Origin: Schlesneria sp.
GTDB taxonomy: Bacteria; Planctomycetota; Planctomycetia; Planctomycetales; Planctomycetaceae
Direction: 5' to 3'
Length of the DNA stretch: 64,000 nucleotides
Assembly (NCBI GenBank): GCA_028291515.1
Contig: JAQGHU010000106.1
Coordinates: 62,001 to 126,000 of the forward strand
Positions 5,369-60,105 of this stretch are shown here, piece by piece. The notes beneath the pieces were generated by a model, which was given only the letters and a program-made list of their open reading frames with translations, was not told the origin of the DNA and made no database searches. A program made the translations under genes and the position numbers. Position 1 is the stretch's first letter. Every line of letters starts with the position of its first letter.

Positions 5369-6994
5369 ATGGTGACCGCGAAGCCAATCATCGCCGGCGT
5401 GGGTTTGATCGTGTTGCACTGCATGATCGCTCAAGCCGCGCCGCCGGATGCGACATCACTGTTTCCGGCTGGCTGTCAGCAAGGCACTTCGGCCAGCGTG
5501 ACCATCCAGGGGAAACTCGGTGATGGGGTGAATCGAGTCTGGTGCTCGCGCCCCGGGGTGACTGTCTCATTCCCCGAGAAGCCCGGCCCCATCAAGATCG
5601 ATGTCGCCTCGTGGGCCGAACCCGGCGTGTGTTGGCTGCGCTTCTACAACGATGATGGAGCATCAGGCCTGCGGCCATTTGTCATTGGCACATGCCCAGA
5701 GATCGACGAAGCAGAACCGAATGATGAAGTCGCGAAAGCCCCGCAGTTGCCCGATCTGCCAGTGGTGGTGAACGGTCGGCACGGCAAGAACGGAGACGCC
5801 GATTGCTTCGCGGTGTCATTGAAGAAGGGACAGATCATCGTCGTGTCGCTGATGGCGAACCGAACACTGGGATCGCCTCAGGACGCTGTGCTGCAGATCC
5901 TGGGACCGGAAGGGTTCGTGCTGGAACAGAACGAAGACGACCAGGGATTAGACCCGCAACTGAATTTCACCGCCCCTCAAGATGGGATCTACACACTACG
6001 GACATGGGCCTTTCCCGCGACGCCCGACAGCAGCATTCGCTTGTTTGGCAGTCCGGCGTGTGTCTATCGGCTGCTGGTCACGGGAAGCTCGTTCGTCGAC
6101 CACGTGTTGCCGCTCGCGATTCAGGGTGGTCAGACTCAACATCTTCAGCTGCGTGGCTGGAACCTGGTACGGAACGAAATCGCTGTCACAGCTCCGGTGT
6201 CGGTGATTGGCCGGCGATTTGAATGGCCCGTTGACGGATTGAGCCAACGCCTGCCCGTTTCGATCATCGTCTCTCCGGATGCCGCGATCGTGGAGCATGA
6301 ACCGAACGATCTGGCACACGCTACGCCGATCACCGTGCCCGGAGTTGTCAGCGGCGAGATCTCACAACCTCGCGACATCGATGCCTATCAATTTCAGGCG
6401 AAGAAAGGTCAACGACTACGGTTCGAGGTGAGTGCTCGCGAATGGGGATCCCCATTGGATCCGGTCATCGGCATCTACGATGCCGCGGGGAAACTCCTGA
6501 GAGAGGCCGACGATGACGGGAGGCAATCGATCGATCCCGACGTGGAGTATACGTTGCCGGCCGACGGCGTATTCCGCGTGACGGTTTGCGATCGGTTCTC
6601 TCACGGTGGCGAACGGTACGCCTACCTGCTTTCGATAACGGAGACGCAGCCCGACTTCACGTTGTCGGTCGCCACCGATGCGTTCATGTTGAGCGCCGGG
6701 AAGCCGTTGGAAATCCCCGTCACAATCACGCGGTCGGCATTTGAGCAGGAAATCGCCGTCCGGGCGATTGGTTTGCCCGACGGAGTGTCAGCCGAACCGG
6801 TGATGTCGGCTCCCAAGGGAGACAGTTCCAAGACGGTGAAGCTGATTCTGAAGTCGGACGGCCAGGCGACGTTTTCGGGGCCGATTCAGATTGTCGGTCG
6901 ACCGGCAGAATCGTCCAACGTTAAGGTCGCGACAGTCACTCTGAAGGCGTTCCAGACGGAATCTTCTGCGATCTGGCTCACGGTCAAAAAGTGA
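5369..6994 (+). CDS. Exported protein with PPC (bacterial pre-peptidase C-terminal) domains
   Basis: A 541-residue protein with a signal peptide (VTAKPIIAGVGLIVLHCMIAQA) at its N-terminus. Two PPC-type beta-sandwich domains are visible: each begins with an acidic 'EAEPND' or 'EHEPND' signature (EIDEAEPNDEVAKAPQLP; IVEHEPNDLAHATPI) and continues with a D-C/AYxFxxKKGQ strand (ADCFAVSLKKGQII; IDAYQFQAKKGQRLRFEV). Such proteins are abundant in planctomycetes, often encoded with DUF1549/DUF1553 or DUF1501 genes, which are absent here. Start: ATG 5369 with GGAG upstream; an in-frame TTG at 5360 is less likely. Exact role unknown, presumably extracytoplasmic binding. Confidence 0.82.
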   Translation: MVTAKPIIAGVGLIVLHCMIAQAAPPDATSLFPAGCQQGTSASVTIQGKLGDGVNRVWCSRPGVTVSFPEKPGPIKIDVASWAEPGVCWLRFYNDDGASGLRPFVIGTCPEIDEAEPNDEVAKAPQLPDLPVVVNGRHGKNGDADCFAVSLKKGQIIVVSLMANRTLGSPQDAVLQILGPEGFVLEQNEDDQGLDPQLNFTAPQDGIYTLRTWAFPATPDSSIRLFGSPACVYRLLVTGSSFVDHVLPLAIQGGQTQHLQLRGWNLVRNEIAVTAPVSVIGRRFEWPVDGLSQRLPVSIIVSPDAAIVEHEPNDLAHATPITVPGVVSGEISQPRDIDAYQFQAKKGQRLRFEVSAREWGSPLDPVIGIYDAAGKLLREADDDGRQSIDPDVEYTLPADGVFRVTVCDRFSHGGERYAYLLSITETQPDFTLSVATDAFMLSAGKPLEIPVTITRSAFEQEIAVRAIGLPDGVSAEPVMSAPKGDSSKTVKLILKSDGQATFSGPIQIVGRPAESSNVKVATVTLKAFQTESSAIWLTVKK

Positions 6995-56804: not shown

Positions 56805-58139
56805 ATGACGCCAGAAGTGAATCGTTCCAAGTTGTTCGTCATCGATACGAACGTCGTCCTGCACGACGCAGGTTGCTTGCGAAACTTCGAAGAAAACGAT
56901 GTCGCCGTTCCGATCACAGTTCTGGAAGAACTGGATCGTTTTAAAAAGGGGAATGAAGATCTCAACTTCCAGGCGCGCGCCTTTCTGCGTCGCATCGACG
57001 AACTGACCGGCGACGTGCTCGCCCCTGAAGGAGTTTCACTCGGTGATGGTCTGGGCTCAATCCGCGTCGTGCTGGAAGCGCAACACAATCAACGCTTGGA
57101 GCAGGCCTTCCTGGCCGATTGCCCCGACCATCGAATTCTGAATGTGGCCCTGACACTGCAGCAACAGGAGGCGCCTCGACCGGTCGTCCTCGTGACCAAG
57201 GACACCAACCTCAGGATGAAGGCCAAATCTTTTGGCCTGACAGCTCAAGACTATATTACCGACAAGGTCGAAAGCTTTGACAAGCTTTACACCGGAAAGC
57301 GATTGGTCAGTGATTTGCCTTCGGAGACGGTCAGCCAGTTCTATGTTAATGGTGGTCATGTTCCCGCCAGTGACTTGGATTGTGTGACTCAACCGATTGC
57401 AAACGAGAACTTCATTCTGCGCAACGGCAGCAAATCGGTGCTGGCGACCTATTGTCCGCAGGAGCGGTCATTCGTCCGTATTGACAAGCTGTCCGCTTCA
57501 GGGATCGCACCGCGCAATGCCGAGCAATCGTTTGCTCTGCGGGCTCTGCTCAATGACAACCTCAAACTGGTGACGCTGACTGGCAAGGCTGGCTCGGGCA
57601 AGACGCTATTGGCCTTGGCGGCCGCGATGGAATGTAAGTCGCGATACCGACAAATCCTGTTGGCCCGTCCGGCGGTTCCGCTCAGCAACAAAGATCTCGG
57701 CTTTCTGCCGGGGGACCTTGGTGCGAAGCTGGATCCGTACATGCAGCCACTATACGACAACATGGCGGTCATGCGACATCCGCTGGGGGATCTGGCCGGA
57801 GCGCCCAAGGTGCAGGACTTATTAGCGGCCAATCAGTTGGAGGTCACACCGCTGGCCTACATCCGCGGCCGTAGCCTGCAGCGAGTCTTCTTTATCGTTG
57901 ACGAGGCTCAAAATCTGACGCCACACGAGATCAAAACGATCATTACTCGTGCGGGTGAAGGAACCAAGATCGTCTTCACAGGCGATATTCAGCAGATCGA
58001 TCATCCGTATCTTGATTCGTTGTCGAACGGACTCAGCTACATGATCAATCGCATGGTCGGTCAGCCACTCTATGCGCACGTTACATTGGAGAAGGGTGAA
58101 CGCAGCGAACTGGCCGAACTGGCCAGCAATTTGTTGTAA
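56805..58139 (+). CDS. PIN-PhoH family ATPase
   Basis: A 444-residue PhoH2/YlaK-type protein. The N-terminal PIN nuclease domain has [11 protein letters not shown] (residues 11-21) and LEELDRFK. The C-terminal P-loop domain has Walker A GKAGSGKT (260-267) and Walker B VDEAQN (Asp366), with [13 protein letters not shown]-PhoH proteins are thought to unwind and cut RNA. ATG 56805 with GGAGG five bases upstream; an earlier in-frame ATG at 56742 is not preferred. It is alone on its strand. Confidence 0.93.
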
Positions 58140-58219
58140 GCCAAGCAGACACCGCGTGCTCAGCCATGAACGGGCCATGGCTGAGCACTGCGTTTAGTCT
58201 GGATTATTCATCGAGGTTC

Positions 58220-58290
58220 ACCAAGATCGGACTCCTGATCAACTTCAACAATACGAAGCTCAAGGTGGAATTCAGCGTTTCGTTCTCTGA
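58220..58290 (+). pseudogene. Truncated remnant of a GxxExxY gene
   Basis: The segment reads KIGLLINFNNTKLK and continues with the same 3' end as the full gene at 58432, but only the last 24 codons or so remain, and one base is missing relative to the intact copy (AAGGTGGA versus AAAGACGGA), which puts the last seven codons out of frame. The copy ends with the same CTCTGA. It forms part of a longer direct repeat (58220-58381 versus 58732-58894). Confidence 0.75.
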
Positions 58291-58381
58291 TTCCTTCGTG
58301 CTCTTCGTGTCCTTCGTGGTGAAAGAATGCCGAACTAGCCGGTCAACTTGACTCGCAGTCACTGTCGGTTCACAGTATTGG
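58220..58381. repeat. Direct repeat, left copy, at the GxxExxY unit
   Basis: 162 bases (58220-58381) closely similar to 58732-58894: the end of the coding sequence, the CTTCGTG/CTCTTCGTG motif, and about 60 bases of downstream DNA (ending TTGG). Differences include a one-base deletion and scattered substitutions. Confidence 0.8.
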
Positions 58382-58404
58382 CGTGTTAAGAGCGGTAGAG
58401 AGTT

Positions 58405-58431
58405 ACCACGAAGGACACGAAGAGCACGAAG
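58405..58431 (+). repeat. Inverted repeat (left), abutting the GxxExxY start codon
   Basis: The 27-base ACCACGAAGGACACGAAGAG plus CACGAAG is the exact reverse complement of 58807-58833, and also of 58294-58320. It ends directly before the ATG at 58432, so it also supplies the AAGGA ribosome binding site. Confidence 0.85.
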
Positions 58432-58803
58432 ATGGAATTTGAAGAACTTTCCAGTCGAGTGATCGGTTGTGCCATCGAGGTCCACCGAATCCTGGGTCCG
58501 GGGTTGCTGGAATCTGCTTATAAGCAATGTTTGGCGTATGAGCTAAGTCGTAGCGGAATTGCATTCCAGACTCAGTGCCCACAACCGGTTCAATACAAAG
58601 ACATTCAACGGGATTGCGGCTATCGGATAGACATTCTGATCGAGAATCGGTTGATACTCGAACTCAAGAGCGTCGAGACGACCAAGGCAATTTACGAAGC
58701 CCAACTGCTGACTTACATGAAATTGGCTGGCATCAAGATCGGACGCCTCATCAACTTCAACAATACGAGGCTCAAAGACGGAATTCAGCGTTTCGTTCTC
58801 TGA
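58432..58803 (+). CDS. GxxExxY family protein
   Basis: A 123-residue protein of the GxxExxY family: VHRILGPGLLESAYKQCL contains G-L-L-E-S-A-Y. Other landmarks are GYRIDILIENRLILELKSVE and AQLLTYMKLAGIKIGRLINF. The D-x-L/I...E-L-K-x-x-E order resembles PD-(D/E)xK nuclease folds, an idea that is inference. Members are frequently found as isolated genes in Gram-negative and planctomycete genomes. The start codon touches an inverted repeat (58405-58431) that also occurs downstream of the stop; the unit is bounded by longer direct repeats. Confidence 0.88.
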   Translation: MEFEELSSRVIGCAIEVHRILGPGLLESAYKQCLAYELSRSGIAFQTQCPQPVQYKDIQRDCGYRIDILIENRLILELKSVETTKAIYEAQLLTYMKLAGIKIGRLINFNNTRLKDGIQRFVL

Positions 58804-58894
58804 TTCCTTCGTGCTCTTCGTGTCCTTCGTGGTGAAAAAATCCTGAACAAGCCGGTCAACTTGACCCACAGTCGTTGTCGGTTCTGAGTGTTGG
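58732..58894. repeat. Direct repeat, right copy, at the GxxExxY unit
   Basis: 163 bases containing the 3' end of the intact GxxExxY gene and its downstream flank; counterpart of 58220-58381. It includes the inverted repeat element 58807-58833. Confidence 0.8.
58807..58833 (-). repeat. Inverted repeat (right) downstream of the GxxExxY gene
   Basis: CTTCGTGCTCTTCGTGTCCT plus TCGTGGT, perfect reverse complement of 58405-58431; a third identical copy in this orientation is at 58294-58320. It starts 3 bases after the gene's stop codon. Confidence 0.85.
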
Positions 58895-58958
58895 TTTGCG
58901 CGGGAATGAGAGAAAGAGCAGTTCAAGCGACCATTAAACCCGATACAGAAAGTTCGGG

Positions 58959-59936
58959 TCATGCTCGACGACCTTTCAGGCCACACGCTTCCTGAACGCG
59001 TTGCAGGACTTGCTGTCCCTTCGCGCGGGCCTTTCGAGCGCCAGCCTGTAGCACTTCTTCGACGTAAGCCGGGTTCGCGACAAGCTCCGCTCGCTTTGTA
59101 CGGGCATTGGCGAAGTAAGTCATGGCGGCATCGTACAGGGCTTGCTTGGCTTCACCGTATCCCATGCCACCGGCACGATAACGCGCGGCCAAAGCCGTCT
59201 GCTGCTCGGGTGTCGAGAACAATTTGTAGAGCGTGTAGAGCGAACAAGTGTCAGGATTCTTCGGCGCTTCCATCGGTGTCGAGTCGGTCTTGATCGACAT
59301 GATCTTCTTCCGCAGCGGTTTTTCCGCCTCGAAGATTTCCAACGTGTTGCCGTAACTCTTCGACATCTTTTCGCCGTCGGTACCGGGCACTTTTGCCCCT
59401 TCTTCCAGAACGCGAGCATTCGGAAGATGCAGGAATTCGCCACCGAAGATCGAGTTGAATCGCTGAGCGATATCGCGCGTCACTTCCAGATGTTGGATCT
59501 GGTCAGCGCCGACAGGGACAATGTCGCTGTCATACAACAGGATGTCGGCGGCCATCAGGACGGGATACGTGAACAGGCCCGCGTCCGCAGCAATCCCCTT
59601 GACCACTTTGTCTTTGTACGAGGTACATTTCTCCAGCAGACTGAACTGCGTCACCGTCATCAACAGCCACATCAACTCGGTCACCTCAGGAACGTCCGAC
59701 TGTCGGAACAGCGATGCCTGGTTCGGATCCAGACCCAAAGCGAGCAGATCGACGGCGGCGTCCCAAACATTTTCTTCCAACTGCTTGCGATCGCGGACAC
59801 TGGTCAGCGCGTGCAGATCGGCGATGAAATAGAACGACTGTTCGTTGTTCTGCAGAGCGATGTACTGCTGGATCGCTCCAAAGTAATTGCCCCAGTGAAA
59901 CCGACCTGTAGGCTGAATTCCGGAAAGGACTCGCAT
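58959..59936 (-). CDS. trpS: Tryptophanyl-tRNA synthetase
   Basis: A 325-residue class I aminoacyl-tRNA synthetase, of normal bacterial length. The HIGH-like motif lies in [16 protein letters not shown], the KMSKS motif at residues 190-194 ([11 protein letters not shown]), and the specific [18 protein letters not shown] stretch is present. It charges tRNA-Trp in the cytoplasm. ATG 59936 is the first and only good start. pyrD is 170 bases upstream on the same strand, but a common transcript is not evident. Confidence 0.97.
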
Positions 59937-60105
59937 GACTCACCAAAAAATGTAAACAACGGACCGATTGAACTTTGCGGTGACAACTCATCCTAGTCAC
60001 GTGAGCCGTGCCACTGGTTGGCCGCTTCGGACAACCAGTGCAAAGCGAATTGACGGGCCAGCCGCATCGGCTTTTCAACTCTTCTCTACACTCCACTCTC
60101 TCCAA

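Follow-up and report, generated by a model that had tools for sequence, protein, structure and literature searches.

A predicted PD-(D/E)XK nuclease gene of the GxxExxY family stands between inverted arrays of a ~9-nt unit in many phyla and resembles a minimal mobile element

An intact GxxExxY gene between perfect inverted repeats

We analysed a 64,000-nt stretch of a Schlesneria sp. contig, referred to as the window. Near its end, a GxxExxY locus is flanked by a PhoH-domain ORF on one side and a class I (W/Y) tRNA synthetase ORF, here called TrpS, on the other. The locus contains the following features:

58219..58290, + strand: decayed remnant of a second GxxExxY gene, comprising its last ~72 nt and carrying one 1-nt indel relative to the intact copy
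58294..58320, - strand: 27-nt arm of the decayed upstream copy, made of three ~9-nt units, placed by sequence complementarity
58321..58404, no strand: spacer separating both copies, mostly repeat Z (GAAAGAATGCCGAAC...), then GAGCGGTAGAGAGTT
58405..58431, + strand: left 27-nt arm ACCACGAAG-GACACGAAG-AGCACGAAG, abutting the start codon
58432..58803, + strand: intact GxxExxY / PDDEXK_3 predicted nuclease gene, 123 aa, from the ORF and profile matches
58807..58833, - strand: right 27-nt arm, the perfect inverse of the left arm
58834..58894, no strand: second copy of the Z repeat, a direct repeat of 58321-58381

A sequence-only reading had placed the intact gene at 58432-58803 between perfect 27-nt inverted repeats, and both the coordinates and the complementarity were borne out. 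The three arms (58405-58431, +; 58807-58833, -; 58294-58320, -) showed 100% complementarity. Their 18-nt core had three matches in the window with up to 3 mismatches allowed, all of them exact, against a mean of 0.06 and a maximum of 1 in 100 dinucleotide shuffles. The same reading had described an upstream copy in direct repeat with a one-base frameshift, which the alignment of blocks 58219-58381 and 58731-58894 reproduced: 146 of 164 columns were identical, with a single 1-nt gap. As this gap lies in the coding part, the upstream copy consists of the last ~72 nt of a gene, frameshifted, followed by an arm and ~61 nt of flank. The two copies are direct repeats with a period of ~513 nt. Read by eye, the spacer sequences of 58321..58404 recur beside other arms in the genome, and Z is also found there without arms.

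As a single DNA strand, the arms around the window gene pair strongly (z -4.36). The suggestion that the repeats provide the ribosome binding site was rejected as a general explanation: a scan of the window gene for seven Shine-Dalgarno-like words (-20 to -4) found only AGGA, at -20, and in the 55 strong-arm loci of other lineages described below the left arm ended a median of 24 nt before the match start, reaching it (within 3 nt) at only 10. Separately, a 13-bp perfect stem (GTGCTCAGCCATG, 7-nt loop) lies 3' of the PhoH ORF at 58156-58188, is kept in the related genome G008 and is perhaps a terminator. Rfam searches gave no match in six loci at the gathering score, nor in window positions 57500-60000 at E up to 1.

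Properties of the encoded protein

The 123-aa protein matched PF13366 with 138.2 bits (cut-off 22; 2e-40) and TIGR04256 with 142.9 bits (cut-off 35; 5.1e-42), both above the curated cut-offs for membership of the GxxExxY family. PDDEXK_3 and GxxExxY were its only Pfam and NCBIfam families. Residues invariant in 69 sequences included G22, G24, E27 and Y30 of the GxxExxY motif, together with D67, E77, K79, Q91 and N108. The AlphaFold2 model had a pLDDT of 97, and the predicted fold is closest to Cas4: the nearest solved structure was Cas4 SSO0001 (4ic1; Z 9.8, rmsd 3.1 A, 98 aligned), with the next row at 7.8. Foldseek gave a best E of 4e-3 and no match at or below 1e-3, with LHK-Exo and lambda exonuclease among its first rows. 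The conserved D and ExK in a restriction-endonuclease-like predicted fold place the protein in the PD-(D/E)XK superfamily. Sequence searches of the PDB found no solved relative at E up to 1, and a CRISPR-associated PHROG match was weak (E 0.0099).

A known anti-phage defence system was considered and set aside, as PADLOC returned 0 families for three proteins at E up to 0.1. Among planctomycete copies, dN/dS was 0.03-0.25 in 11 of 21 pairs; dS was inestimable in the other 10, and several dS values exceeded 1. Judged by these ratios, the GxxExxY copies are under purifying selection.

Copies of the repeat in the genome and the genus

With up to 2 mismatches allowed, the 18-nt core ACCACGAAGGACACGAAG had 40 matches genome-wide, evenly split between the strands (20 each) and spread over at least 15 contigs, compared with 0 and 1 for a reversed-pattern control. 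Twenty-six of these copies form 13 convergent pairs, and the remaining 14 face outward in pairs, stand as single arms or match only weakly. We read the content of the convergent pairs by eye. Three contain the gene, in units of 420-429 nt, and one holds a GxxExxY unit interrupted by an inserted ORF, which we take to resemble an IS transposase. Three more (L044, L052 and L053) are deletion derivatives in which the gene has retained both its start and its end, four are hairpins of 74-83 nt, and two enclose ~200-nt stretches of other content. The hairpin L045 retains only the ATGGAATT start of the gene and its last ~20 nt, joined where GGAATT is present at both ends. No other recurrent gene was noticed between arms, by eye, in the loci of this genome and in 20 loci of the related genome G005.

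PF13366 had 12 matches in the genome. Inverted arms, with ungapped scores of 19-30, surround six of the seven intact genes that have both flanks visible. In the remaining one, L034 (score 11), the arms are of the CGCAGAT/CGCAGAG kind and run mostly in direct orientation. One further copy (L038) ends at a contig end, and the other four matches are partial. The inverted arms of the six genes are of four types (CACGAAG, CGCGAAG/CGCGGAG, CGCAAAG/CGCCAAG and CACGGAT).

Other repeat families enclose the array elements. The separate repeat Z, ~110 bp long and bounded by GCCGAAC...GTTCGGC, adjoins many GxxExxY units and also occurs without them (by eye; for example L166:8137-8250 and 6850-6905, and window 58321-58389). 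Also by eye, the genus hairpins L050, L054 and L176 are embedded in yet another repeat, which has ACAGGCGCGCGGCGACATATG to one side and GGTTGTGTCA close by.

Across 15 genomes of the genus, the core was present in nine, with 0 to 53 matches at up to 1 mismatch, and PF13366 matched in 14. Core matches were regularly spaced in G009. Frameshifted and deleted GxxExxY copies were common. Of the 20 places read in G005, three were full units (427-428 nt) and 17 were hairpins, all 82-84 nt long but for one of 73. Sixteen of the hairpins share one loop, while L259 keeps gene-end sequence instead. In the 29-pair stem of these 16 hairpins, 96.7% of cells were paired, against 48.1% at most in slid versions, and the covariation score was matched by none of 500 shuffles. 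Three stem pairs had changed on both sides, a number reached in 18 of 500 shuffles. These values show co-variation and leave its cause undivided, since gene conversion may also keep the arms alike. These hairpins are gene-less inverted doublets present in many copies with hairpin-preserving changes, a feature shared with REPIN/RAYT systems.

GxxExxY genes and inverted arrays across phyla

GxxExxY genes across phyla stand between inverted arrays of a ~9-nt unit (NNCRCRRAG). The association of a GxxExxY gene with inverted repeats is a general pattern, and the window locus is one case of it. A first set consisted of the best 80 of at least 571 relatives that alignment A2 recovered from genomes of named species. 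Inverted repeats were scored between the 200 nt upstream and the 200 nt downstream of each gene; five of the 80 loci had too little flank. An inverted-arm score of at least 30 was reached by 53 of 75 loci, compared with 6 of 242 neighbouring ORFs (at least 100 aa) and 1 of 750 shuffles. At least two CRCRRA[GT] units upstream in forward and downstream in reverse orientation were present at 56 of 75 loci and at 3 of the 242 control ORFs. Among control ORFs scoring at least 30, those at L150 and L092 have the same kind of arrays, and those at L097 overlap a PF05635 gene. The mean number of motifs per 200 nt was 2.81 upstream forward and 2.71 downstream reverse, compared with 0.69 for each wrong orientation and ~0.3 for controls. 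Unit spacing was mostly 9 nt (78), followed by 10 (32) and 8 (28).

With a few gene bases included, 55 of the 80 loci scored at least 30. They fall in 13 phyla, one of them archaeal, as assigned from record titles; many come from MAGs, so a single odd phylum assignment could reflect a binning error.

Genes of a second set were selected in 31 first-set genomes with PF13366 and without recourse to a sequence pattern. These gave 135 matches, 30 of them as loci; of the other 105, we took 60 regions (61 genes), mostly higher-scoring, full-length and away from contig ends. Eight genes lying in first-set loci and one with too little flank were removed, leaving 52 further paralogues. A score of at least 30 was reached by 34 of these 52, and the strict two-sided motif count by 21, the lower figure arising because second-set arms also use units like CACTAAT, ACAGAAT and ACAGGAT. 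Genes below score 30 numbered 22 of 75 in the first set and 18 of 52 in the second. The 242 control ORFs belong to the first set, and the seven intact genes of the Schlesneria genome and the 52 of the second set are given without controls of their own.

A phage- or plasmid-borne element was considered and rejected, as there was no regular occurrence on such records: tblastn with the window protein matched 0 of 50,697 phage records and 8 of 72,556 plasmid records, and among viral contigs the window protein had 0 matches and alignment A2 had 3.

In the course of the scan we met 23S rRNA intervening-sequence-protein-type genes bracketed by inverted periodic repeats at L097:5553-6047 (score 60) and L401:5340-5931 (score 39). 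The repeats are CGTATTC units and AAACNGTTCAAACCGTTTAA. PF05635 was shown for the L097 gene, and the L401 gene was linked to it by phmmer. A third gene of this type (L401:19504) was not bracketed (score 16). A second small-gene family, PF05635, may share the bracketed architecture.

In a literature search covering mainly open papers we found no description of an association of GxxExxY genes with inverted arrays. GxxExxY is named in PMC8934634 and PMC12085832, the available parts of which do not concern inverted arrays, and the part of PMC4060949 available is not about the association either.

Array type and abundance follow the gene

We compared protein and arm similarity in 59 of the 80 loci (the rest had a score below 24, no core motif or no phylum label), giving 1469 between-phylum pairs. 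For pairs from different phyla, protein identity correlated with arm similarity (Spearman 0.263; 0 of 999 permutations). The correlation was 0.279 when made partial on flank GC (0 of 1999), 0.328 with long arms only (48 loci; 0 of 1999) and 0.323 when L127 was also left out (0 of 1999). The gene tree of 77 sequences, built on few columns and with many weak forks, had 36 phylum-label changes for 18 groups (one 'unknown'), compared with a minimum of 17 and a shuffle mean of 51.6, so phyla are both clustered and mixed.

Of 32 gene-bearing genomes from many phyla, 22 contained the strict pattern CRCRRAGNNCRCRRAGNNCRCRRAG, with up to 97 matches, while the reversed control gave 2 in total; the other 10 genomes were without a strict array. 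Among 244 planctomycete genomes, the pattern occurred in 109 (1626 matches), and the reversed control gave about 36 matches in 20 genomes, so single array matches mean little. PF13366 was present in 116 of the 244. Counting any array, 80 genomes had both, 29 the array only, 36 the gene only and 99 neither (odds ratio 7.6). The 116 gene-bearing genomes held 1532 array matches, compared with 94 in the 128 without the gene. The gene was present in 50 of 55 array-rich genomes (at least 4 arrays) and in 66 of the remaining 189; the five other array-rich genomes had no detected gene. With one genome per family (81 families, 200 draws), the co-occurrence had a median p of 1e-4 and a worst of 0.005. 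Under permutation within families, the value for array-rich genomes was reached 123 times in 5000 and that for array matches 12 times in 5000, a weaker result which indicates that the effect is partly family-level.

Presence and absence of elements between relatives

Two pairs of related species differ in the presence of array elements. An empty site for the window locus was sought by TrpS synteny in the 15 genus genomes (blastn), and only G008 also aligned across PhoH. In G008, the closest relative found (TrpS 95% identical), the unit is absent between PhoH and TrpS. In its place stand ~81 nt of other sequence, and no clean empty site was found for this locus in the 15 genomes. Three elements of contig C39 were not found at the matching G008 places, where intergenic DNA is too diverged for junctions; G008 has a different array type at one of the three.

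The second pair, G294 and G216, are two species of one other planctomycete genus with 88 and 11 strict arrays, respectively. The G294 array element at 687.7 kb, which lies within a CCCCCTTT..AAAGGGGG repeat, is absent from the matching G216 place. The element at 685 kb is also absent in G216, with only the right flank aligning well, as is that at 1139 kb, where both flanks align around ~0.1 kb of other sequence in G216. A gene at 774 kb in G216 gave no clean gene site, being in an 11-kb stretch largely missing from G294. Neither a target-site duplication nor a clean gene-bearing empty site was found at the window locus, C39 or the G294/G216 sites.

As a separate observation, the complete genome G294 holds many copies of a ~240-bp element (L369-L384), rare in the sister species, with the array inside longer inverted ends (CTTATCCTTACCCACATCTTTAAATAC...). 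A replication-strand bias of G294 arrays was considered and dropped: only + arrays were seen among the matches listed, but reverse arrays stand at the same places.

In Microcystis, the gene and its flanks were found in three of 11 other genus genomes, and a fourth matches up to the gene start, at a contig end. The other seven have short repeat pieces or weak matches, among the matches listed. Single arms elsewhere in Microcystis G020 belong to a larger repeat, at least ~125 bp long, and the copy number of the left-arm unit varies between genomes. In Microcystis G022, a ~0.94-kb stretch lies between two right-arm copies 3' of the GxxExxY gene (L202); its two small ORFs resemble, by eye, a toxin-antitoxin pair. 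The stretch is absent from a sister genome, as if cassettes were exchangeable between arms. Both the arm-unit variation and the insert are expected if arrays recombine.

Discussion

The gene usually lies between mirror-image repeats and gene-less hairpin remnants are scattered over the genomes that carry it, so the whole looks like a widespread minimal mobile element. The sequence-only reading had proposed a small duplicating or mobile repeat-bounded unit, and this proposal gained support from the 40 genomic core copies, the deletion derivatives and the hairpins with the same arms, as well as from the absence of the element in the PhoH-TrpS spacer of the closest relative found, the patchy copy number in the genus and the cross-phylum pattern. 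We also looked for the opposite picture, repeats unique to the locus around a gene that is syntenic without them, and it does not hold. From these comparisons we infer that the array elements are mobile.

The account we consider fairly likely is that of a minimal selfish unit, in which inverted arrays of the ~9-nt unit form the arms of a long hairpin and its loop carries a small PD-(D/E)XK nuclease gene. The GxxExxY nuclease would recognise its own family of arrays, as the co-variation of arrays and protein suggests, and would cut or nick there. Repair by annealing with other arrays would then copy the loop content to new array sites and convert the arms to each other. Gene-less derivatives, namely internally deleted copies and 83-bp hairpins, would spread as non-autonomous passengers, like REPINs with RAYTs.

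A broader proposal, which we offer tentatively and regard as possible though doubtful, is that GxxExxY is the mobilising enzyme of an unrecognised class of bacterial, perhaps archaeal, mobile DNA. Here a lone Cas4/RecB-type nuclease, with no DDE, HUH or tyrosine/serine recombinase, would recognise NNCRCRRAG-like arrays able to form hairpins, and would spread itself and gene-less hairpins via host repair. If true, it would explain many periodic repeats in environmental genomes of many phyla.

The arrays could instead be the termini of MITEs that an unrelated transposase, DDE or HUH, mobilises, with GxxExxY as a passenger or accessory factor. This would fit the ~240-bp G294 element, whose array is enclosed by longer inverted ends and which is missing from the corresponding places of the sister species, the Microcystis single arms inside a larger repeat, and the five array-rich planctomycete genomes with no detected GxxExxY gene. 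We hold it unlikely, as array type tracks GxxExxY protein similarity between phyla, array abundance tracks gene presence, and no second recurrent gene was noticed between the arms read by eye.

More improbable still, in our judgement, is a host gene around which the arrays evolved as terminators or mRNA-stability hairpins, the other hairpins being ordinary regulatory repeats. Strong single-strand pairing of the arms around the gene, a hairpin covariation that fits a structural role, and purifying selection agree with such a gene; against it are the patchy copy number within one genus, the common frameshifted and deleted copies, the mixing of phyla on the gene tree and the rarity of such arms at neighbouring genes (6 of 242). 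Local tandem duplication by unequal recombination with no transposition, to which the ~513-nt direct repeat in the window, the regular spacing in G009 and the repeated Microcystis arm units point, probably contributes locally, but is contradicted as a full account by copies on at least 15 contigs and the same architecture in 13 phyla, and we give it very little credence.

The minimal selfish unit would suggest a function for a large and little understood family of proteins, and would account for the origin of intergenic repeats recurring in many phyla. It predicts that each GxxExxY nuclease binds or cuts the array bracketing its gene. Confirmation would mean that a REPIN-like lifestyle has also evolved around another nuclease fold, and the known small array-recognising nucleases would gain a member.

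Among known systems, the PD-(D/E)XK exonuclease/Cas4 group (4ic1, LHK-Exo 3syy, lambda exonuclease 1avq) shares the predicted fold, the D-ExK residues and the Q motif. However, the window gene stands between PhoH and TrpS ORFs and not in a cas or phage recombination operon. MITEs are likewise short gene-less inverted-repeat elements, some of them here plain internal deletions of the gene-bearing form (L044, L045 and L053), but neither a DDE transposase family nor a target-site duplication was identified for GxxExxY elements. The 23S rRNA intervening sequence proteins (PF05635) are also small genes bracketed by inverted periodic repeats, in two of three copies met by chance, although the protein family is unrelated and the repeat different.

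In TIRtrons with their TIRYT genes, long inverted repeats enclose the gene and can also form a repeat family (PMC3733652). Their enzyme, in contrast, is a HUH tyrosine transposase, and the available part of that paper mentions no 9-nt array. In REPIN/RAYT systems (REPtrons), as described in the parts of PMC3116915 and PMC3733652 available, a nuclease gene stands beside or between inverted short repeats, and abundant gene-less inverted doublets form hairpins with compensatory changes, as in the GxxExxY elements. RAYTs, however, belong to the HUH tyrosine transposases and a GTAG tag marks the REPs, whereas the GxxExxY element has a PD-(D/E)XK-family enzyme and an array of ~9-nt units with no GTAG tag. 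As the defining RAYT enzyme is absent, the GxxExxY element is not a member of the RAYT system. By analogy, we read it as a REPIN/RAYT-like system in which the HUH transposase would be replaced by a Cas4/RecB-type nuclease recognising the arrays.
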